Source: Desulfocapsa sp. (GTDB taxonomy: Bacteria; Desulfobacterota; Desulfobulbia; Desulfobulbales; Desulfocapsaceae). From it: DNA of 40,826 nucleotides. Made by a program: the position numbers and the translations under genes. The stretch covers positions 1 through 40,826 of the forward strand of contig JAOZKN010000009.1 in assembly GCA_029935315.1 (NCBI GenBank), read 5' to 3'. Position 1 is the stretch's first letter; each line of letters opens with the position of its first letter. Shown here piece after piece: positions 2,041-21,621 of the stretch. Below the pieces are notes generated by a model that was not told where the DNA came from, did no database searches, and was given only the letters and a program-made list of their open reading frames with translations.

Positions 2041-2595
2041 TTATAAACGTGAACAGTGAAGATCAAAAACAGGTACATGGGGACGTTTCTGGTCAGCATT
2101 GACCATTTCCCCTTCTGGCTTGCTCAAGACATAGCGAATTCCGGCATCAGCTGCACTTACACGGGCAATGACCTCTTCGGGGTTGTCGATATCCATGATA
2201 TGCTCAACTTTGATTCCCTGAGTTGTTGCCATGGCAATGAACTTTTCTGCATTTGTTCTGGCCATCTCCATAAAACGATCACTTTCCCGTATTTTTCTCT
2301 CACCTGAAAACTGCAGTGGTCGTTCTGTGATATCCAGGGCTATGATTTCACAGTCAAGCCGTTGGGCCATTTTGAGTGCATAATCTGTTACCTGTGGCAA
2401 GTAGTCACCGTCCTGCACCATAAGAACCTTTGTCGGGGCATTGTTCTGGTCAACCATCCTGCCCAAAGCTTCGGCTGCTGCAGAAGGACTTCCCGCTGCC
2501 ATAGCGCCCATGTCTACGCTTTGTTTCTTGACTTTTGTTACATCAACGCCTTTATTTTTCTTTATTGCCAAACCAAACCAGTCAGTGAATCCCAT
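2041..2595 (-). CDS. UspA-like universal stress domain protein
   Basis: A 184-residue cytoplasmic protein with one Usp-like alpha/beta domain from about residue 55 (TKVLMVQDGDYLPQVTDYAL... CEIIALDI) to about 165. The C-terminal half resembles Usp in order (helix KFIAMATTQGIKVEHI, then EEVIARVSAADAGIRYVLS), but I do not see the ATP-binding G-2x-G-9x-G(S/T) motif, so nucleotide binding is doubtful. The first 45 residues, with a basic segment and alanine-rich helix, are an extension. A strong AAGGAG site precedes the ATG. The gene has its own sigma-54 promoter at 2654-2669 and an upstream inverted repeat at 2764-2780, making it a likely target of the NtrC-type regulator at 11055. Family call is moderate; function is inferred. 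Confidence 0.7.
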   Translation of the reverse strand: MGFTDWFGLAIKKNKGVDVTKVKKQSVDMGAMAAGSPSAAAEALGRMVDQNNAPTKVLMVQDGDYLPQVTDYALKMAQRLDCEIIALDITERPLQFSGERKIRESDRFMEMARTNAEKFIAMATTQGIKVEHIMDIDNPEEVIARVSAADAGIRYVLSKPEGEMVNADQKRPHVPVFDLHCSRL

Positions 2596-2653: not shown

Positions 2654-2669
2654 TGCACGGGGCGTGCCA
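2654..2669 (-). promoter_or_regulatory. Sigma-54 promoter of the UspA-like operon
   Basis: On the minus strand the sequence TGGCACGCCCCGTGCA matches the sigma-54 consensus TGGCACG-N4-TTGCW with one mismatch in the -12 box and exactly 10 bp between the GG and GC pairs. The predicted start is near 2643, leaving a leader of about 48 bases that contains the AAGGAG site of the gene at 2595. Confidence 0.8.
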
Positions 2670-2763: not shown

Positions 2764-2780
2764 TATTGCAGCTTGCAACA
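2764..2780. promoter_or_regulatory. Putative enhancer site (TGTTGC-N5-GCAACA type)
   Basis: TATTGC-agctt-GCAACA is a 17-bp inverted repeat with one mismatch from the consensus seen three more times upstream of the SLC13 gene. It lies about 120-140 bp upstream of the predicted sigma-54 transcription start, a usual enhancer position for an NtrC-family activator. Confidence 0.6.
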
Positions 2781-3050: not shown

Positions 3051-5081
3051 TTACTGAAGGCTAAGCAGGTGGGGGATGGCTTCGTTCAGGGTATCAACGT
3101 AAACCAGTTCCAGTTGGCCGCTAACATCGTCACTGAATGAGGCAACATCTTCCTGGTTTTGTGCAGGCAGAACAACCTTGGTGCAGCCGGTGCGGACGGC
3201 AGCCAGGAGTTTTTCACGGACCCCACCCACCGGCAGCACCTTGCCGGTTAAGGTCATCTCACCGGTCAGCGAGACGGTACGGCGTACCGGGCAATCGGTG
3301 AGCAGGGAAATCAATGCAATAGCAATGGCCATACCGGCAGAGGGCCCATCTTTTGAAACCGCACCTGCAGGCAGATGGATATGGATATCGGAGTGATCGT
3401 AAAAGTCAGGAGCGATGCCAAGCTGTTCAGTATTGCTTCTGATATAACTGAGAGCTGTCTGGGCTGACTCCCGCAGTACTTCTCCCAGTGATCCGGTGAG
3501 AATGAGATTGGTGTTTCCCCGCATCTTCAGGGCTTCAATAAACATGATTCCACCGCCAAACCGGGTCCAGACCAGACTGGTAACGACCCCTGTTGTATCT
3601 TCGCCTTCGGCTGCTTCCTGTCGATACCTGCGCGGGCCAAGCAGTGAGGTGATTGCCGTCTCGTCTATATCGGGCAGGGATTTTGACTTATTCTGGAGAA
3701 CCTGGAGGGCGAGTTTACGGCAAATGTTTCCAATTTCCCGACTGAGCCCACGCACTCCTGATTCTCTGGTATATTCTACGATAAGTTTTGCAAAGGCTTT
3801 ATCTGTGATCTGTGGCTTGATATCACTCAAGCCATTGGCGGCTACCTGTTTAGGCAGAAGATGCTTTTGGGAAATAACCAGTTTTTCTTCTAAGGAATAA
3901 CTGGAGAAATCGATTATCTCCAGTCGATCCAATAAAGGGCCTGGCAGTTTACTGATGTCATTTGCCGTGGCAATAAAAAGGACGCTGGAAAGATCAAAGG
4001 GAAGATCAAGGAAATGATCGTTAAAGCTCCCGTTCTGCTCCGGATCAAGGACTTCCAGGAGAACAGAGGCCGGATCCCCGCGAAAATCCTGGCCAATCTT
4101 ATCGATCTCATCCAACATAATACAGGGATTGCGCACTCCGGCACGCTTGATTTCACTAATGATACGGCCCGGCATGGCACCAACATAGGTTCTTCGATGC
4201 CCCCGGATTTCAGCTTCGTCACGCAATCCAGCCATGGAGACCCGAATAAATTCCCGGCCTAAAGAAGTCGCCACAGATTTTCCTATTGAGGTCTTTCCAG
4301 TACCCGGAGGACCTGCAAAGCAGAGCACCGGTCCCTGGCTGATTTGCAGTTTCTTCTGTTTGTGGAGAATTTCCTCCACAGTCTCTTTGAGTTGGTCGAG
4401 CTGAACCGGTTTGGAGAGATAGTGGGTTGCACCCTTGCGCATGGCATCCACAGCATTGGCCACTGTTGCGTATCCGGTGACCATGATCACACTGGTTTCT
4501 GGAGAGGCTTTGCCGACCTTGTCGATCAGGGTGAGTCCATCCATCTTATCCATCTTCAGATCAGTGATCATCACATCAAAATGATCACTCTCTTCAACCT
4601 GTTGCAGGGCTTCTACACCATTGGAGGCAACCTGTACCGTATGACCCAGGCCCTCAAAGTAGATTCTAAGATTATTGCGGGCAACTTCCTCGTCATCAAC
4701 AATGAGTATTCTGGATTTTTGCTGAATTTTTAGACTCTTTGCCGCAAGGTATTCAAGAATTCGTGTCTTGACCGCCTCAAGTCCGTGATGGTGTGAGGCC
4801 ATAATGGTTTCAGCACGCTTGAGATCAAGCTTGTCTCTGGTTTCCTGAAACCACGGCATGGAGAGGAGCAGTTCGATATAGTTTACACCTATGGAGAATT
4901 CAGCAACAATTGGATCAATTTTCTGCAGGCGTCCCATTTCTGTTGCTACCTGACGGGAAACATAGAGTGGCAGGTCAGTATCTGCCACCCTGGCTTTCAG
5001 GTCATCAAGCTGCCGGGAACCATTCGTTTCTTCTCTTGCTGCGTTTATTGGTTTGCTTTCGCTTTTAGAAAAAAGACTCAT
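3051..5081 (-). CDS. Lon-type protease with an inserted receiver domain (REC-Lon)
   Basis: A 676-residue predicted ATP-dependent serine protease of the Lon family with a two-component receiver domain inside it. Order: short coiled N-terminal linker (1-120); receiver (123 to about 240) with acidic pair D129/D130, phospho-acceptor D174 in VMITDLKM, T202 and K224; AAA+ module with Walker A GPPGTGKTS (257-265) and Walker B IMLDEIDKIG; Lon protease domain with catalytic S581 (KDGPSAG) and K624 (VREK). The LON N-terminal substrate-binding domain is absent. Compared with the canonical Lon at 19222, the receiver is inserted exactly between the helix ending EYLA and the GPVLCFAGPPG strand leading into Walker A. 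All residues needed for phosphorylation, ATP hydrolysis and proteolysis are present. The start overlaps the stop of the upstream HTH gene as ATGA. I infer proteolysis gated by phosphorylation; substrates are unknown. Confidence 0.95.
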   Translation of the reverse strand: MSLFSKSESKPINAAREETNGSRQLDDLKARVADTDLPLYVSRQVATEMGRLQKIDPIVAEFSIGVNYIELLLSMPWFQETRDKLDLKRAETIMASHHHGLEAVKTRILEYLAAKSLKIQQKSRILIVDDEEVARNNLRIYFEGLGHTVQVASNGVEALQQVEESDHFDVMITDLKMDKMDGLTLIDKVGKASPETSVIMVTGYATVANAVDAMRKGATHYLSKPVQLDQLKETVEEILHKQKKLQISQGPVLCFAGPPGTGKTSIGKSVATSLGREFIRVSMAGLRDEAEIRGHRRTYVGAMPGRIISEIKRAGVRNPCIMLDEIDKIGQDFRGDPASVLLEVLDPEQNGSFNDHFLDLPFDLSSVLFIATANDISKLPGPLLDRLEIIDFSSYSLEEKLVISQKHLLPKQVAANGLSDIKPQITDKAFAKLIVEYTRESGVRGLSREIGNICRKLALQVLQNKSKSLPDIDETAITSLLGPRRYRQEAAEGEDTTGVVTSLVWTRFGGGIMFIEALKMRGNTNLILTGSLGEVLRESAQTALSYIRSNTEQLGIAPDFYDHSDIHIHLPAGAVSKDGPSAGMAIAIALISLLTDCPVRRTVSLTGEMTLTGKVLPVGGVREKLLAAVRTGCTKVVLPAQNQEDVASFSDDVSGQLELVYVDTLNEAIPHLLSLQ

Positions 5082-5419
5082 TTTGTTTTACAGTCATAGG
5101 GTTGAATAAGTATCTCTGCAGAAATATGCAGATACTTATTGAGATTACGAATCATACGTAGAGAAAGTGCTTGTCGTCGCTTCAGTATTGCGCATACATT
5201 ACCTGAGCTGCCGATATAAACTTTCAGGTCTTTGTTACGGAGGCCGCGCTGATGCATAATTTTTTTTAGATGCGTTATCGGGTCGGGCAGAACTTTTTTG
5301 GCGGCTGGTTTACTGGCACGGACAACAGAGATAACAGTGCTGTCCATATCTTCCCCCCCCATTCCAAATTCATTTGTCTCAAACTGTCCCATAAGCTCAG
5401 TGGGTAACCTGTATTCCAT
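5078..5419 (-). CDS. HigA-like (antitoxin-type) HTH protein
   Basis: A 113-residue protein whose C-terminal 65 residues form an XRE-type helix-turn-helix close to HigA antitoxins: DPITHLKKIMHQRGLRNKDL, VYIGSSGNVCAILKRRQALSLRMIRNL, then ISAEILIQ. The first 45 residues look flexible. HigA-like proteins bind DNA and, in toxin-antitoxin pairs, are degraded by Lon. No toxin gene is adjacent: upstream, 12 bp away, is nhaD, and downstream, overlapping by 4 bp (ATGA), is the REC-Lon protease. A GAGG site 8 bases before the ATG supports the start. It may be an orphan antitoxin-like regulator, a substrate of REC-Lon, or an adaptor; these are inferences. Confidence 0.8.
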   Translation of the reverse strand: MEYRLPTELMGQFETNEFGMGGEDMDSTVISVVRASKPAAKKVLPDPITHLKKIMHQRGLRNKDLKVYIGSSGNVCAILKRRQALSLRMIRNLNKYLHISAEILIQPYDCKTK

Positions 5420-5431
5420 GATGGTTCCTCG

Positions 5432-6850
5432 TTAAAACAGTTTACTGTTGATTAATATATGGCAATAGATACTTGCCCCGTAGCCGAGTGCTATAATCGG
5501 AGTCCATTTTAAATGGGCACCAAAGGTATAGGTTCCCCTTGCTGTTCCCATAAGAGCCACACCGGCGGCTGAGCCAATTGAAAGCAGACTGCCACCCACT
5601 CCAGCCGTCAGGGTGACCAGCAGCCATTGACCAAGAGACATGGAGGGATCCATGGTTAAGACAGCAAACATAACTGGTATATTATCAACAATGGCTGAAA
5701 GGATACCAACCAGAATATTGGCATTGGTGGCTCCCAGTCCGTCGTACATTTGATGGGAAACCAGGGCCAGATAACCAAATTGAGAAAGACCGCCAACACA
5801 GAGAATAACCCCATAGAAAAAGAGGAGGGTATCCCACTCGGCTCTGGCTACCCGCTTGAAGATGTCGAAGGGGTCATCCTGATCACTGATGGAAATTCCC
5901 AGAGGTTTATCGTACTCGTGGGAACGTTTTTCTTTTATTTTGATGTAATAGGAGAAAAAACCCAGGTAGGAGAGACCTAGCATCATGCCTGCAGCAGGGG
6001 GAAGATCGAGGAAGTTATGGAAGGAAACTGCGGTTACGATGGTCATGAGAAAGAGAAATATGATCCGTCTGGCACCGAATTTCATGGCGACATTCTCATC
6101 CACGGCCTCAGGTGTGTCTTTAGAGACAAAGAGACTCATGATGATTGCCGGTATCAGCCAGTTGAGCAGGGCAGGAACAAAGAGGTAAAAAAACTGGCCG
6201 AATGTGGCCTGGCCCTTTTGCCAGACCATAAGGGTGGTAATGTCGCCAAAAGGAGAGAAGGCTCCTCCTGCATTGGCCCCCACCACGATATTAATACAGG
6301 CCAGAGCGACAAATTTTTTATTGTTTGGGGCCACTGCCATAACCACAGCTCCCATGAGCAGTGCTGTTGTCAGGTTGTCAGCAAGGGGTGAGATAATAAA
6401 GGCCAGCAAGCCGGTGATCCAGAAAATTATGCGCAGGGAAAAGCCCCTTGAAACAAGTACGGATCGCAGGGCCTGGAATACATTTCGTTCATCCATGGAG
6501 TTGATGTAGGTCATGGCTGCAAGGAGAAAGAGCAGCAGTTCGGCGTATTCAGTAATATTATGTAGAATCGCATTGTGTGCTTCTTCTGCTGGAATACCTG
6601 CCATGCGGTAGCTGATGGCGAGAAGTACCCAGATAACTCCGGCAGCCATCATCACCGGTTTACTCTTGCGCAGGTGGGTCTGCTCTTCAAAAATAACCAG
6701 CACATAGGCAAGAACAAAAAGAGCCAGAGATGCGTAGCCAAGTGACGTTGCAGTCAGGCTTACTGCTGTTTCCCCACCTCCATGGCCTGAGGCAAATGCC
6801 ATACCTGCACCGCCAAGCAAGGTGATGCAGCAAAATAGTAAAGTTTTCAT
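5432..6850 (-). CDS. nhaD: NhaD-type Na+/H+ antiporter
   Basis: A 472-residue inner-membrane antiporter of the NhaD/IT superfamily, expelling Na+ (or Li+) in exchange for H+. It has the typical N-terminal signal-like helix with a short HGGGE periplasmic stretch, then about 12 hydrophobic segments, and family hallmarks such as NITEYAELLLFLLAAMTYI, SPLADNLTTALLMGAV, GANAGGAFSPFGDITTLMVW and VDNIPVMFAVL, whose Asp, Thr and Asn residues are typical of the transport site. Length is normal. It lies 118 bp after the SLC13 gene and 12 bp before the HigA-like gene on the same strand, so it is probably co-transcribed with the HTH protein and REC-Lon. This links the protease operon to Na+/pH homeostasis. 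Confidence 0.93.
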   Translation of the reverse strand: MKTLLFCCITLLGGAGMAFASGHGGGETAVSLTATSLGYASLALFVLAYVLVIFEEQTHLRKSKPVMMAAGVIWVLLAISYRMAGIPAEEAHNAILHNITEYAELLLFLLAAMTYINSMDERNVFQALRSVLVSRGFSLRIIFWITGLLAFIISPLADNLTTALLMGAVVMAVAPNNKKFVALACINIVVGANAGGAFSPFGDITTLMVWQKGQATFGQFFYLFVPALLNWLIPAIIMSLFVSKDTPEAVDENVAMKFGARRIIFLFLMTIVTAVSFHNFLDLPPAAGMMLGLSYLGFFSYYIKIKEKRSHEYDKPLGISISDQDDPFDIFKRVARAEWDTLLFFYGVILCVGGLSQFGYLALVSHQMYDGLGATNANILVGILSAIVDNIPVMFAVLTMDPSMSLGQWLLVTLTAGVGGSLLSIGSAAGVALMGTARGTYTFGAHLKWTPIIALGYGASIYCHILINSKLF

Positions 6851-6968: not shown

Positions 6969-8774
6969 TTATAGGCCATAAAAAAGAGCAATTGCGGCCA
7001 TCATGACCACCAGGTAGAGAATGGTCATTCCAGCACCGGCTCTGAAATAATCCTTTGTCTTGTAACCACCAGGGCGCATGATCAGCGCATTAACCTGATG
7101 GGTGGGCAGGACAAAGGTATTTGAGCAGGCAACTGCAACCACCAAAGCTGCTATACGGGGATCGGCTCCGGCAGCCCCTGCCATATTCATGGCCAGTGGA
7201 ACCATGAGGACTGTTGCGCCAACATTTGAGGCAACCAGAGTAAAGAACGAGGTCAGAATTGCAATCACCGTGAGTAGAACCAGCGGGGAGACGGTCCCTA
7301 TTGCGCCCATGATTGTCTGGGCAATAAGGTTTGCGGCCCCTGTTTTTTCAAAGGCAATCCCAAGAGGAATCAGACCTCCAAGGAGAAATACCGTCATCCA
7401 GTCAACAGACTCATAAGCCTCATCAATGGAAAGTACTTTTGTTAAAACCATACCCATGGCACCGGCAAGGAGGGCAATGGAAAGTTGCACATGAAAACCA
7501 AGGATCATAACAAGGGCAAGCACCAGACTTCCCACGGCGAATTTGATTTTATCACCGCGCAGAATTTCTCCCTGAACCTCTTCTGTAAAGGCAAGATCAG
7601 TGCGTTCTTTCAAATAATGGAAATTTTCCCAGGAGCCTTGCAGAAGCAGTGCGTCCCCTGCGTTGAGGGTCATCGTTGAAATATTACCAACATATGTTTT
7701 GTTCTGACGTTCCACTGCAAGGGGCATAACATTATTTTTCTTCCGAAAAGAATGAGAACGGAGGGTGCTGCCTACGAGTTCCGAACGCGGGGTGATGATT
7801 ACTTCCATGATCCCTGCATTGTTTGGTGAGAGACTTTCTGCAAAAACCTCAAGATCTGCCTTAATTGTCCAGCCAAAAGACTGAACCATCTTTGCAACGA
7901 GATCAGGTGGGCCTTCCACGGCTATGGTGTCTCCGGGGCCGATTTTATTAGCATAATCCGGAGTTGTTACAGATAGCCCGCTTTTGGCCTGGATTCCAAT
8001 TACAGTTGTAAAAAAGAGCGGTCTGATTTCAAGATCTTCAAGGGTCTGGGGACCTTCGAATGAATCAGGAACTTGAATTTCAAAAATTTCACCAATATCA
8101 TGGTAGGTTTTTTCAAGTTCGACGGACATTGGTCCGCTTCCACCTTCTTCACCTTTCCCGGTTGGGAGAATAAAACGACCGAATAAAACAAAATAAATAA
8201 GGGCAGCAACGATTAATGCCAGGCCTATTGGGGTGACAGAAAACAGACCAAAAGGTTCAACGTTCGGGTCAGAAATTTTCATCACATCATTCATAAGAAT
8301 AAGCGGACTTGATCCAATCAGGGTAATACAACCGCCAATGATAGCACAGAAGCCCATGGGCATGAGAATCCGGGAAACCGGAATGTTGGTTTGTCGACAG
8401 ATACGCTTGGCAGCAGGCATAAACAGGGCCGCGGCCCCAATGTTCTGCATAAAGCTGGAAATAAAAGCAACGGTACCTGAGATAAGGATCATGATCCTGC
8501 TCTCACTCTTGCCGGCAAACTTGAGGAGGACACGGGCCAGGGAGTTCATGGCCCCTGTCTTGTCCAGCCCTGCACCGATAATAATAACGGCAATAATTGA
8601 AACAACAGCGTTACTTGAAAGGCCGCTGATTGCTTCTTTCGGGGTAACCAGTCCCAAAAGGGGGAGAATGATCATCATGATGATGCCGACCACGTCGACA
8701 CGCACCCATTCAAAAATAAAGAGTAGAATTGCCAGGCACAAAACAGCCATGACTAAAATTATAGGGAGAGTCAT
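6969..8774 (-). CDS. SLC13/DASS-family permease with two RCK_C (TrkA-C) domains
   Basis: A 601-residue inner-membrane transporter. The N-terminal membrane half (1-200) includes SSNAVVSIIAVIIIGAGLDK and MQNIGAAALFMPA; two cytoplasmic RCK_C/TrkA-C modules follow (about 215-300 and 310-385, each a GD-x-I/L turn such as GPGDTIAVEG and NAGDALLLQG); the second membrane half carries ASNVGATVLMVPLAMN and SNTFVLPTHQVNALI. This layout is common in bacterial permeases annotated as SLC13 or sulfur-anion carriers, driven by Na+ or H+; the substrate (sulfate, thiosulfate, dicarboxylate or other) cannot be read. The AAGG site precedes the ATG. A sigma-54 promoter at 9077-9092 points at it across a leader of about 290 bases. 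Confidence 0.9.
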   Translation of the reverse strand: MTLPIILVMAVLCLAILLFIFEWVRVDVVGIIMMIILPLLGLVTPKEAISGLSSNAVVSIIAVIIIGAGLDKTGAMNSLARVLLKFAGKSESRIMILISGTVAFISSFMQNIGAAALFMPAAKRICRQTNIPVSRILMPMGFCAIIGGCITLIGSSPLILMNDVMKISDPNVEPFGLFSVTPIGLALIVAALIYFVLFGRFILPTGKGEEGGSGPMSVELEKTYHDIGEIFEIQVPDSFEGPQTLEDLEIRPLFFTTVIGIQAKSGLSVTTPDYANKIGPGDTIAVEGPPDLVAKMVQSFGWTIKADLEVFAESLSPNNAGIMEVIITPRSELVGSTLRSHSFRKKNNVMPLAVERQNKTYVGNISTMTLNAGDALLLQGSWENFHYLKERTDLAFTEEVQGEILRGDKIKFAVGSLVLALVMILGFHVQLSIALLAGAMGMVLTKVLSIDEAYESVDWMTVFLLGGLIPLGIAFEKTGAANLIAQTIMGAIGTVSPLVLLTVIAILTSFFTLVASNVGATVLMVPLAMNMAGAAGADPRIAALVVAVACSNTFVLPTHQVNALIMRPGGYKTKDYFRAGAGMTILYLVVMMAAIALFYGL

Positions 8775-9286: not shown

Positions 9287-9303
9287 TGTTGCACATCGCA
9301 ACA
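9287..9303. promoter_or_regulatory. Putative enhancer site 2 (perfect inverted repeat)
   Basis: TGTTGC-acatc-GCAACA is a perfect 17-bp inverted repeat, about 220-240 bp upstream of the predicted SLC13 transcription start. It lies in the gap between this operon and the divergent kinase gene. Confidence 0.65.
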
Positions 9304-9592: not shown

Positions 9593-11062
9593 ATGTTCTC
9601 TTTAAATTTGCGTCAGAAGATGATTGGTTGTTTTTGCCTGCACCTGCTTTTTTATATTGTCGTTGGGGTCAATTTTTTAAAAGATTTTGATATGTTCAAC
9701 GATGATGTCACGCTGCTGATGCATGCTGGTGATCTCAGCAATATTAGTCTTGAGATACGACGCTATGAAAAAAACTTTATTATCCGCCATGACAATGTCG
9801 ATTTCATCAGGGTTCTTGAATATATAGATGAAGCGCAGCAGCTTGTGCCCCAGGTTATTGAAGATTTAAAGATCATGCCGCAACCGACTCATCTTGAAGA
9901 TCTTACTGCTAAGCTGGCAGCGTATAAGGAAAACTTTAAGCATTTTAAAGAAGAATGTACTGGCCAGGATGCGGTTGTCTGCCCCTTGCGTGAAGAAGTA
10001 CGTAGTCTGGGACAGGATCTTGTGAACATCACCGAAGATCTGGTTCTTTTTGAACAAACCAAAATGACTATCTTTATCGAAAGATTCACTGCCCGGCTTA
10101 TAAAAACGGTCCTTTTTCTTGTGACCTTGTCCATTTTCACCATCACCCTTCTCTACACTTCAATTGTTAAACCCCTGAAGATGGTTGAAAATGCAGCAAT
10201 CGACGTTGCGAACGGGACTTTTTCACTATTGCCTGTTGATGAAAAAAAAGGTGAAGTGCGCAGTGTCCTTCGTGCCTTTAATAAAATGGTCACAGACCTG
10301 GAAGAACAACAGGATCAGCTTTTCCAGGCAAAAAAGCTCTCTTCGATTGGCACTTTGGCCTCGGGTACTGCCCATCAGATAAACAATCCGCTCAATAATA
10401 TTTCTACCTCCTGCCAACTGGCCCTTGCCGATATTGGTGATGATAAAGAGTCATTTGTTGTAAAGATGCTTGAGACCATCGATCAGGAAACACAGCGTGC
10501 CGGAGAAATTGTCAGAGGTTTATTGGAATTTTCCAGGGCACAGACGTTTTCGCCACAATCCTGTCAGCTTGAAGAGATTGTTCACAAAGTGAGGCGGCTC
10601 GTTGCCAGTGAAGTCCCGGCAGGCATCAGCATAGATACTGATATTCCAGAGGATGTACTCATTTATGTTGATGTGCAGAAAATGGTTGAAGCCCTGTTGA
10701 ATCTGACAATCAATGCAATCCAGTCCATCTCTGAGGTGCCAGGGAGTGTGTTTATCGGAGCAGAAAAAGATGCGGAAAAGAAGAATACTGTTATCACCGT
10801 GGCTGATTCAGGTACCGGGATTGAGCAGGAACACCTGGCCAAAATATTTGATCCGTTTTTTACTACAAAAAATGCTGAAAATGGAACCGGTCTGGGGCTG
10901 GCAGTTGTATACGGTATTATAAAAAAACAGAGTGGGTCAATCAGGGTAGAGTCAACAAAGGGGAAAGGAAGCAGCTTTGTTATAACTTTGCCGCTTTGGG
11001 TTGAATCCATTGAAACAGGGCTGGCTGGCAAGCATTCAATATCCGGGAAGAGCAATGTCTGA
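9593..11062 (+). CDS. Membrane sensor histidine kinase
   Basis: A 489-residue two-component kinase. TM1 spans about 9-29, a mostly helical periplasmic sensor about 30-168 (with C122 and C130 as possible metal or disulfide ligands), TM2 about 170-190, HAMP about 190-242, HisKA with phospho-acceptor H261 in GTAHQINNPLNNI, then HATPase_c with N box LLNLTINAIQSI, G1 DSGTGI, F box FDPFFTTK and G2 GTGLGLAVVYGII. The residue after H261 is Gln where HisKA kinases usually have Glu. The 3' end overlaps the response regulator start by 8 bp, so the two form a pair. The gene is divergent from the SLC13-REC-Lon series, its probable target. The sensed signal is unknown. Confidence 0.93.
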   Translation: MFSLNLRQKMIGCFCLHLLFYIVVGVNFLKDFDMFNDDVTLLMHAGDLSNISLEIRRYEKNFIIRHDNVDFIRVLEYIDEAQQLVPQVIEDLKIMPQPTHLEDLTAKLAAYKENFKHFKEECTGQDAVVCPLREEVRSLGQDLVNITEDLVLFEQTKMTIFIERFTARLIKTVLFLVTLSIFTITLLYTSIVKPLKMVENAAIDVANGTFSLLPVDEKKGEVRSVLRAFNKMVTDLEEQQDQLFQAKKLSSIGTLASGTAHQINNPLNNISTSCQLALADIGDDKESFVVKMLETIDQETQRAGEIVRGLLEFSRAQTFSPQSCQLEEIVHKVRRLVASEVPAGISIDTDIPEDVLIYVDVQKMVEALLNLTINAIQSISEVPGSVFIGAEKDAEKKNTVITVADSGTGIEQEHLAKIFDPFFTTKNAENGTGLGLAVVYGIIKKQSGSIRVESTKGKGSSFVITLPLWVESIETGLAGKHSISGKSNV

Positions 11063-12434
11063 CAAAAAAAATATCGCTATCCTACTGGTTGACGACGAAG
11101 AAATAAACGTCCAGAATGTCGGCCATTTCCTTGAGCACCAGGGGTTTCTTGTGACAACCGCGACAAGCGGCAACGAAGCCCTGGGCTTGCTTGCTCAGTC
11201 TCACTTTGATCTGGTGATAACGGATTTGAAAATGGGTGATGTTGATGGCGTTCAGGTTATGAAAAGCGCCAAGGAACTTCACCCTGAAATTGAAGTGATC
11301 ATTGTCACCGGTTATGCCACGGTCAACTCTGCTGTGGATGCCATGGCTCAGGGCGCATTTTATTATCTCCCCAAGCCGATTAAGCTCAAAGAACTGCACA
11401 CTCTGGTGCTGAGAGCCACAGAAAAAACACTGCTGCGGCGCGAGATCAGTCGCCTCAAACGGCGTATTGAGGCACAACGGGGGACAACTCAGTTTATTGG
11501 CCAGAACCCGGCTATTCTTGCTCTCAAAGATTCCATTGCTCATTTTGCCCAACTGAACTGTAATGTTCTGATTACTGGAGAAACCGGTACCGGTAAGGAG
11601 TTGGTGGCAAGAACAATTTATGAACTGAGCCCCCGAGCCGATAAGCGTTTCCTGCCCATCAACTGCGGAGCCATGAGCGAAGAGTTGATGGTTAATGAAC
11701 TGTTTGGTCATGAAAAAGATGCCTATACTGATGCTGGAGGACAGCGCAACGGGCTTCTGGAATCTGCCAATGGTGGGGTCGTTCTTTTTGACGAAATAGG
11801 GGAGATGGCGCTTAGCATGCAGGTGAAATTGTTACGGGTACTGCAGGAGAAAAAAATTATCCGTGTGGGGGGAACCAAAGAAATCCCCATTGATGTTCGT
11901 TTGCTGGCTGCCACCAACCGGGATCTCAAGGAAGAGGTGGAAAAAGGAACCTTTCGCCAGGATCTGTATTACCGCCTCAATGTAATCAATCTTCATATCC
12001 CGCCACTCAGGGAGAGAAAAGACGATATTCCCCTTTTGGTGAACTACTTTCTGGCCAAATTTTCCCAGCCCAATGGAACGAATAAAAATGTTTCCCCGGA
12101 AGCCCTTACCCGTTTACAGGATTACGATTACCCTGGTAATGCAAGAGAGCTTGAAAATATCATCGAACGCTCACTTGCCATTTGTGATGATAGTGAGATA
12201 CAGGCACATCACCTTCCGACAGATCTCTGCAAGAGCCAACCTTTCCACCTGCCAGGTATTCAAACAGACCGGGTAAACAAGAGCCTTGAGGAAAATGAAC
12301 GTGAATATATTCTCTCTGTCCTGAAAAGTGCTGACGGGAACAAGACAAAGGCTGCCAAAATTATAGGTATTGACAGAGTTTCCCTGTGGCGAAAACTGAA
12401 GAAATATGAAAAAAACGGAGTCGACGTGGGATAG
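11055..12434 (+). CDS. NtrC-family sigma-54-dependent response regulator
   Basis: A 459-residue regulator: receiver domain (about 5-120; phospho-acceptor D57 in VITDLKM, followed by VTGYATV and a PKP motif), AAA+ sigma-54 activation domain (Walker A GETGTGKE at 175-182, Walker B GGVVLFDEIGEM, arginine-finger region), and a Fis-type HTH at the C-terminus (NKTKAAKIIGIDRVSLWRKL). The loop that contacts sigma-54, normally GAFTGA, reads DAYTDA (222-227). The ATG at 11055 is chosen because it has a GGAAGAG site and gives the standard MSDKKNIAILLVDDEE start; the open frame extends 18 codons upstream inside the kinase gene. Its receiver closely resembles that of REC-Lon. It is the likely activator at the two sigma-54 promoters in this window. 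Confidence 0.93.
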   Translation: MSDKKNIAILLVDDEEINVQNVGHFLEHQGFLVTTATSGNEALGLLAQSHFDLVITDLKMGDVDGVQVMKSAKELHPEIEVIIVTGYATVNSAVDAMAQGAFYYLPKPIKLKELHTLVLRATEKTLLRREISRLKRRIEAQRGTTQFIGQNPAILALKDSIAHFAQLNCNVLITGETGTGKELVARTIYELSPRADKRFLPINCGAMSEELMVNELFGHEKDAYTDAGGQRNGLLESANGGVVLFDEIGEMALSMQVKLLRVLQEKKIIRVGGTKEIPIDVRLLAATNRDLKEEVEKGTFRQDLYYRLNVINLHIPPLRERKDDIPLLVNYFLAKFSQPNGTNKNVSPEALTRLQDYDYPGNARELENIIERSLAICDDSEIQAHHLPTDLCKSQPFHLPGIQTDRVNKSLEENEREYILSVLKSADGNKTKAAKIIGIDRVSLWRKLKKYEKNGVDVG

Positions 12435-19221: not shown

Positions 19222-21621
19222 GTGGAATTTAATGATTCTTTAGCAATGGGCATGGATGATTTTACCGATCATGAGGACATGGTTATTCCAAATGAATTGC
19301 CGATGATGGCAGTTCGGGATGTTGTTGTTTTCAATTATATGATTATCCCGCTTTTTGTGGGCCGGCCTAATTCTGTGGAAGCAGTCAATGCGGCTCTTGC
19401 TGGCGATAAGCTCTTAATGCTGCTCACTCAAAAGGATGCAACTGCGGACGATCCCGGACCGGAAGATTTGTATAATGTGGGCATGGTGTGCATGGTTATG
19501 CGTACCCTGAAACTACCCGATGGCAGATTGAAAGTTCTTGTTCAGGCGGTTTCCAAGGCCAAAGTGAAGAAGTATATCCACACGGAACCTTATAGCAAGG
19601 TGCGGATCAAAGTACTTCCGGAAGTAGAGAGCGAAAATAACGATGTGGCAACAGAGGCGCTGATGCGTACCGTGCGTGAGCAGACGGAAAAGATCATGTC
19701 TCTGCGTGGTATTCTTTCCGCTGATCTGATGATGATCATCAATAATATCGAAGATCCCGGTCGGCTTGCTGATCTTGTTGGTTCCAACCTGCGCCTGAAG
19801 ATCCCGGAATCTCAGGCGATTCTTGAAGAACAGGATCCGAATAAACGTTTGCAGCTGGTAAACGATCTACTCACCAAGGAACTTGAAGTCTCAACGGTTC
19901 AGGCAAAGATCCAGTCTGATGCCAAGGAAGAGATGTCCAAGTCTCAGCGCGAGTATTATCTTCGCGAGCAACTGCACGCCTTGCAGAAAGAACTTGGTGA
20001 CAGCGATGAGCGCGGGCAGGAAATTGATGATCTGCTGCGTAAGCTCAAAAAGACCAAGATGCCTAAAAAGGTGCGAAAAGAGGCAAAAAAGCAGATTGAA
20101 CGTATGGATATGATGCATCCGGATTCTTCCGAGGCCACCATTATCCGTACCTATATTGATTGGATTCTTGATGTGCCCTGGAAAAAGGGAACCAAAGACC
20201 GCCTGGATTTAAAGGCTGCCAAAGTTGTCCTTGATGATGATCACTTTGGTCTGGATAAGATCAAAGAACGTATTCTGGAATATCTGGCAGTACGCAAGCT
20301 TAACGCTGATACAAAAGGTCCCATTTTATGTTTTGTGGGACCTCCCGGTGTTGGAAAAACCTCCCTTGGCAAATCCATTGCCAGAGCCATGGGACGTAAA
20401 TTCTATCGCCTGTCCCTGGGCGGCATGCGGGATGAGGCAGAAATACGCGGGCATAGGCGTACCTATATTGGTGCCATGCCTGGAAGGATTTTACAGGGCT
20501 TGAAAATGGTGGAATCCAACAATCCTATTTTTATGATGGATGAGGTGGATAAGATCGGTTCCGATTATCGTGGTGACCCTTCTTCTGCGCTTCTGGAAGT
20601 CCTGGATCCGGAGCAGAATTTTGAGTTTTCCGATCACTATATGAACATGCCCTTTGATCTTTCCAAGGTTATGTTTATCACCACCGCCAACAGGATGGAC
20701 ACTATTCCCGGACCTCTCCTGGACAGAATGGAGATCATAGAACTTTCCGGATACACCCTGGAAGAAAAGGTGGTTATTGCCAGGAAATATCTGCTGCCGC
20801 GACAGATAAAAGAAAATGGAATCAAAGCAAGGCATATGCGTCTTAAAGATGATACCTTACAATATATCATCAGTCACTATACACACGAGGCCGGCCTGCG
20901 TAATCTGGAGCGGGAAATCGGAAAGGTTTGCCGTAAACTGGCGAGAAAAATAGCAGAAGGCGGGAAAGGTCCCTATGCAATTAACCGAAATACCCTGACC
21001 CGGTATCTGGGCCCGCCAAAAACTATACCGGAATCAGAGCTGGAAACCCTCCACCAGCCAGGGCTTGTAACAGGCCTTGCCTGGACAGAAGTTGGTGGTG
21101 AGATTCTGCAGATTGAAGTGAATTTTATGCCGGGAAAAGGCAAGATGCTGCTCACCGGACAACTTGGTGATGTGATGAAGGAATCGGTGCAGGCAGCACT
21201 CACCTATTGCCGAAGCCGTTGCGGTGATCTTGGTATAAAAGATGATTATTTTGATAAACATGATATTCATGTTCACGTGCCGGCTGGTGCTATTCCAAAG
21301 GACGGACCATCCGCAGGCATCACCATGGCAACTGCAATTTACTCTGCCATCAGTGGCAAGAAGGTGCAGAAACGATTGGCCATGACCGGTGAGGTGACCC
21401 TTCGCGGTCGGGTTCTTCCCATTGGTGGCCTGAAAGAAAAAGCTCTGGCTGCCGTTCGGGCCGGAATTAACAAGGTGATTATCCCGGCCCAGAACGAAAA
21501 GGACCTTGTGGAAATTCCTGCTGAGATCCGTAAGACCATGACATTTTATCCGGTGACGGATATGGATGAAGTCGTTCGTCTGGCCTTTGATGGTAGTAAA
21601 GCCACGAAAAAGAAAAAGTAA
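19222..21621 (+). CDS. lon: ATP-dependent protease Lon (canonical)
   Basis: A 799-residue Lon protease that degrades misfolded and regulatory proteins in the cytoplasm. Layout: LON N-terminal substrate-binding domain (about 25-220, starting [23 protein letters not shown]), coiled coil, AAA+ module with Walker [10 protein letters not shown] (from about 373) and Walker [12 protein letters not shown], and S16 protease domain with catalytic S697 (KDGPSAG) and K740 (LKEK). Length is standard. The GTG start is supported by CGGAGG 8 bases before it. mltG follows without a gap. It is the reference against which the receiver insertion of the second Lon in this window can be placed. Confidence 0.97.

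Follow-up and report, generated by a model that had tools for sequence, protein, structure and literature searches.

Background

The closest described system is that of the sulfate-reducing Desulfovibrio vulgaris, in which Rajeev et al. (2011, PMC3333781) reported a Lon protease within the response regulator DVU3303. DVU3303, the kinase DVU3304 and the sigma54 regulator DVU3305 were described as a three-component system (DVU3303-3305), and a phosphorylation-dependent protease activity was proposed for DVU3303 (PMC3333781). DVU3305 has been published to bind its own and the adjacent operon in D. vulgaris, and it was an activator of both operons in a study of the sigma54 regulome (PMC4641369). 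In a transposon study of D. vulgaris, DVU3303, DVU3304 and DVU3305 showed a cofitness above 0.9 and mutant phenotypes of the same sign in chlorate; the anion transporter DVU3299 was named as a target (PMC10102598). Our literature search on receiver-Lon proteins returned only the D. vulgaris work, and no biochemical test of phosphorylation changing the ATPase or protease activity of such a protein was found in it.

Here we describe REC-Lon, a Lon-type protease with an inserted receiver, encoded in a stretch of 40,826 nucleotides from Desulfocapsa sp. (hereafter the window). In the light of the D. vulgaris papers, REC-Lon adds a new member to a family already described, and the hypothesis at the centre of this work is therefore not new. 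Receiver and Lon were found in one protein, and the locus also contained a kinase and a sigma54 regulator. Judged by architecture and gene neighbourhood, REC-Lon is most likely the orthologue of DVU3303 in its Desulfocapsaceae form; loci from Solidesulfovibrio and the Desulfovibrio group (L032, L033 and L039 among them) served as stand-ins for the DVU3303 sequence.

Domain organisation and insertion site

The gene and its inserted domain were located as follows.

3051..5081, minus strand: REC-Lon protease P0001, 676 aa (open reading frame, Pfam, alignment and structure model)
4377..4709, minus strand: inserted receiver domain, aa 125-235, with the phospho-acceptor D174 (Pfam PF00072, 5.7e-28)

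The exact open reading frame was 3051-5081 on the minus strand; the preliminary description, made from the DNA letters, had given no strand. The protein consisted of a Lon helical segment (about residues 23-118), the receiver (Response_reg, 125-235), an AAA+ domain (AAA, 253-390), a lid (Lon_lid, 415-467) and the protease domain (Lon_C, 472-673, 1.1e-75). Response_reg, AAA and Lon_C, the three families for which that description had proposed a search, were thus all present. It had also read the protein as a Lon-type AAA+ protease lacking the LON substrate-binding domain, and the Pfam scan of P0001 agreed, as LON_substr_bdg (PF02190) was not found. In the canonical Lon of the window (19222-21621), Pfam detected LON_substr_bdg (2.5e-49) and all Lon domains, and no receiver. 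REC-Lon scored above the TIGR00763 cut-off and carried the LonA/S16 features, an AAA+ domain with Walker A and B motifs and a Lon_C domain with a Ser-Lys dyad. It is Lon-derived and not a canonical LonA, having no N-terminal LON domain. The receiver held the acidic pair D129/D130, the phospho-acceptor D174, T202 and K224; every one of these residue numbers had been given correctly beforehand, as had those of the catalytic S581/K624, and the Walker motifs were intact.

Four Lon-type proteases were observed in the genome: the canonical Lon, REC-Lon, and the products of G000:C21:5302-6600 and G000:C221:4772-6028 (L083, L084).

Pairwise alignment with the canonical Lon placed the receiver between ...ILEYLAAKSLKIQQK and GPVLCFAGPPGTGKT, which bears out the insertion just before Walker A, at the hinge between N-terminal region and ATPase, put forward in the preliminary description. 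Two blocks were aligned, residues 23-126 with 266-369 of the canonical Lon (36% identity) and 228-669 with 344-785 (49%). These blocks overlap on the canonical side because alpha5 of the receiver (LDQLKETVEEILHKQKK) itself resembles the Lon helix preceding the Walker A strand. In the AlphaFold model the receiver was complete; its alpha5 spanned 228-245, and six residues separated this helix from the Walker A strand (252-256). In the PDB fold comparison, residues 121-246 of the model matched the receiver 3crn_B (Z 24.3, rmsd 1.0) and the Lon part matched 6v11_C (Z 33); for the modelled structure, this comparison only confirms the Lon and receiver folds. The confidence of the AAA+ part (pLDDT about 50-66) was too low for the packing of the domains to be read from the model.

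Conservation and phylogeny

Scanning genome contigs, we recovered about 49 loci that share the architecture of REC-Lon; most belonged to Desulfobulbaceae/Desulfocapsaceae or Desulfovibrio-group assemblies, and a few to others. In an alignment of 47 sequences, D129, D130, D174, T202, K224, Walker A, Walker B and S581 were invariant, and K624 was a lysine in 46, the remaining sequence having an alignment gap at this position. The junctions of the insertion fell at one common position in 46 orthologues, so the survey of homologues for a kept insertion site, proposed together with the domain search, was positive. Because 46 orthologues share the site and the key residues are invariant, the architecture is neither an assembly artefact nor a matter of chance. 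An assembly that joined two genes, or a degenerate fusion without function, would have to recur with identical junctions in many independent assemblies, including isolates, while keeping catalytic and receiver residues invariant apart from one alignment gap; we found nothing in favour of this explanation and give it practically no weight.

In the wider alignment, all 34 members carried Response_reg, AAA, Lon_lid and Lon_C, and the LON substrate-binding domain was absent among the listed families for every one of the 34 scanned. A full-length REC-Lon match was obtained in 34 of 297 genomes drawn evenly from the same phylum, and REC-Lon is therefore an accessory system, not a core one. In a tree of the ATPase-protease part, the REC-Lons formed one clade against the canonical Lons (split support 0.999), which is consistent with one insertion event, on a limited sampling of canonical Lons. 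Two loci, L021 and L043, were considered as Lons without a receiver in this tree and were rejected; their reading frames begin within the receiver, which makes them truncated or frameshifted REC-Lons.

The loss of the LON domain also admits another role for the receiver. It might serve mainly to dock or recognise substrate, taking over from the missing N-domain, in the manner of RssB or CpdR, which are receiver-type adaptors for ClpXP; phosphorylation would then alter binding and not turnover. The absence of the substrate-binding domain from P0001 and from the families listed for all 34 members fits such a role. RssB and CpdR models were also among the NCBIfam receiver matches, although this only reflects the common receiver fold. 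The insertion, however, lies at the ATPase hinge, whereas Lon binds substrate at its N-terminus, and we regard docking as unlikely.

Gene neighbourhood, kinase and regulator

The genes surrounding REC-Lon were annotated as follows.

2041..2595, minus strand: Usp-like protein P0004, likely regulon member (PF00582, E 0.0018, below the Pfam cut-off)
5432..6850, minus strand: NhaD Na+/H+ antiporter P0005, conserved neighbour (NF038006, 1.4e-179)
6969..8774, minus strand: DASS/CitMHS-type anion transporter with TrkA_C, P0006, likely regulon member (domain matches; cf. DVU3299)
9593..11062, plus strand: membrane sensor histidine kinase P0007, probable cognate kinase and DVU3304 equivalent (HisKA, HAMP, HATPase_c)
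11001..12434, plus strand: NtrC-type sigma54 response regulator P0008, DVU3305 equivalent (Response_reg, Sigma54_activat, HTH_8)

The window contains a complete three-component gene set of REC-Lon, kinase and sigma54 regulator, which is new here. The gene order in the window and its relatives was NtrC< HK< DASS> NhaD> HTH> REC-Lon> Usp>, and the Usp-like gene followed REC-Lon in most loci of the Desulfocapsa lineage. In other families, kinase and regulator adjoined REC-Lon, and some loci ran REC-Lon> HK> NtrC>. Counting loci of at least 14 kb, and taking as NtrC-type regulator a protein at least 47% identical to P0008, we found both kinase and regulator in 31 of 34 REC-Lon loci, the other three having no nearby NtrC partner. 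The same pairing occurred in 0 of 18 canonical-Lon loci of at least 14 kb, an imperfect control that came largely from other phyla. The output at the level of protein degradation suggested in the preliminary description was a sound inference, given a kinase and a second regulator as neighbours in 31 of 34 loci; the idea itself had been published before.

Among the receivers encoded in the genome, the one most similar to the inserted receiver was that of P0008 (44%, E 2.5e-24); the second-best reached 38%. Outside the lineage of the window, the kinase-contact helix alpha1 was nearly common to the two (DDEEIARxNLEHVLKKEGY versus DDExIARENLxHxL..xGY). Specificity between kinases and receivers provides a general basis for reading one kinase from similar alpha1 helices, and the near likeness of these helices suggests, at the level of sequence, that one kinase serves both receivers.

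Throughout the close lineage of the window, the sigma54-contact loop of P0008 was DAYTDA (NAYTDA in L012 and L013) and not GAFTGA; more distant orthologues retained GAFTGA-like loops. L007, L009, L012 and L013 carried a second kinase/NtrC pair beside the first, with 32-33% identity to P0007 and 44-45% to P0008, and in these four loci the transporter genes were missing from their usual place between kinase and REC-Lon.

Shared palindrome and possible promoter elements

The palindrome TGTTGC-N5-GCAACA was common to the upstream regions of REC-Lon loci. Allowing at most one mismatch, 78 sites were found in 77 REC-Lon loci (864 kb), with 0 in the reversed sequence and 1 in 31 canonical-Lon loci (421 kb); 44 of 77 sites lay within 400 bp upstream of REC-Lon. 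The elements in the window were as follows.

2655..2669, minus strand: possible, weak sigma54 -24/-12 element TGGCACGCCCCGTGC, upstream of the Usp-like gene
2764..2780, no strand: one-mismatch palindrome copy TATTGCAGCTTGCAACA, upstream of the Usp-like gene
9287..9303, no strand: exact palindrome copy TGTTGCACATCGCAACA, in the promoter region from which the transporter and kinase genes diverge

The natural reading of this pattern is that P0008 binds the palindrome, which we report here as a putative operator of these loci. A pattern search of the genome gave only two exact copies. The second (C170:27472) was rejected as a regulon site; it lies inside a coding frame resembling deoxycytidylate deaminase, and no further regulon member was therefore inferred from it. 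The scan of the window for sigma54 -24/-12 elements gave 60 matches against 48 expected, which is near chance; we therefore list, with caution, just the one match that precedes the Usp-like gene. Upstream of the same gene, at 2902-2940, GTTGCA-N21-TGCAAC half-sites with a wider spacing than the palindrome were observed; they recurred in 15 of 24 Usp upstream regions.

The conserved grouping of the three genes, and the palindrome that precedes REC-Lon in many families, fit an autoregulated loop. REC-Lon could accordingly form a negative feedback arm whose phosphorylated form degrades P0008 or the kinase and so ends the response. The phenotypes in D. vulgaris speak against it: mutants of DVU3303, DVU3304 and DVU3305 behaved alike, their cofitness exceeding 0.9 and their phenotypes agreeing in sign in chlorate (PMC10102598). 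If the protease destroyed the regulator, its loss should have the opposite effect to loss of the regulator itself, unless polar effects arise from insertions in the first gene. By our own reasoning, part of this cofitness could reflect operon polarity if DVU3303 is the first gene. On balance we consider feedback improbable, more so than docking.

A small gene upstream of REC-Lon

5078..5419, minus strand: P0003, an HTH-like protein of 113 aa; the end of its gene and the start codon of REC-Lon share 4 bases (ATGA)

In the Desulfocapsa lineage, the position of P0003 immediately before REC-Lon was conserved, with a gap of -4 to 208 bases. No Pfam family scored above its cut-off for this protein; there was only a weak HTH_26 match (E 0.068), a PF02120 match being dismissed as chance. 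Judged by eye, P0003 was reminiscent of HigA-type antitoxins, a class with known Lon substrates. It is a possible candidate for a dedicated substrate of REC-Lon.

Proposed mechanism

We favour a branched three-component stress system, in which one kinase has a transcriptional and a proteolytic output and the latter is a receiver-gated Lon; this general scheme is judged fairly probable. The membrane kinase P0007 would autophosphorylate upon a signal and, as we infer, hand the phosphate to two receivers, that of P0008 and that of REC-Lon (D174). Phosphorylated P0008 would then drive transcription of the transporters, the Usp-like gene and the system itself via the TGTTGC-N5-GCAACA sites. Phosphorylation of REC-Lon would shift the alpha4-beta5-alpha5 face of its receiver. 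This shift may be relayed to the AAA+ ring, because alpha5 (228-245) passes almost without a break to the Walker A strand (252-256), and would presumably start or raise the unfolding and degradation of a particular substrate. In the window, REC-Lon is not in one operon with kinase and regulator, which is a caveat on the branched pathway, as are the three long loci with no NtrC partner nearby and the possible share of polarity in the D. vulgaris cofitness. We put at about even chances the more specific version, in which Lon is gated directly by phosphorylation of the receiver at the ATPase hinge and the same kinase drives both outputs in parallel, possibly with a dedicated substrate such as P0003.

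Significance

Regulated proteolysis in two-component systems is usually indirect, with receiver-type adaptors such as RssB and CpdR bringing substrates to ClpXP. REC-Lon has receiver and protease in one chain, conserved across much of a phylum, so that direct phospho-gating of Lon can be tested on a single purified protein. The conserved locus and the palindrome point to the likely kinase and regulon beyond D. vulgaris. Architecture and proposal are already published; a demonstrated gating mechanism would be new, if true. REC-Lon is thus an attractive and directly testable system, yet no discovery of a new kind.

Comparison with known systems

Compared with canonical LonA (the copy at 19222-21621 and the E. 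coli, Y. pestis and B. subtilis structures), REC-Lon showed the same AAA+, lid and S16 protease domains, with 49% identity to the canonical Lon over the ATPase-protease part. It differed in having no LON substrate-binding domain and in the inserted receiver that separates the helical segment from the Walker A strand. With NtrC-type regulators it shared a receiver of the same type, whose alpha5 leads into an AAA+ domain. Unlike these regulators, it had no DNA-binding domain, and its output is proteolysis by a Lon AAA+ and Ser-Lys protease instead of sigma54 activation.

The DVU3303 system resembled the present locus most closely: a Lon-containing response regulator lies beside a histidine kinase and a sigma54 regulator, and the regulon includes Usp-type proteins and an anion transporter. 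The arrangement differed, as here REC-Lon sits with the transporter, HTH and Usp genes, whereas the kinase and regulator are divergent and about 6-8 kb away.
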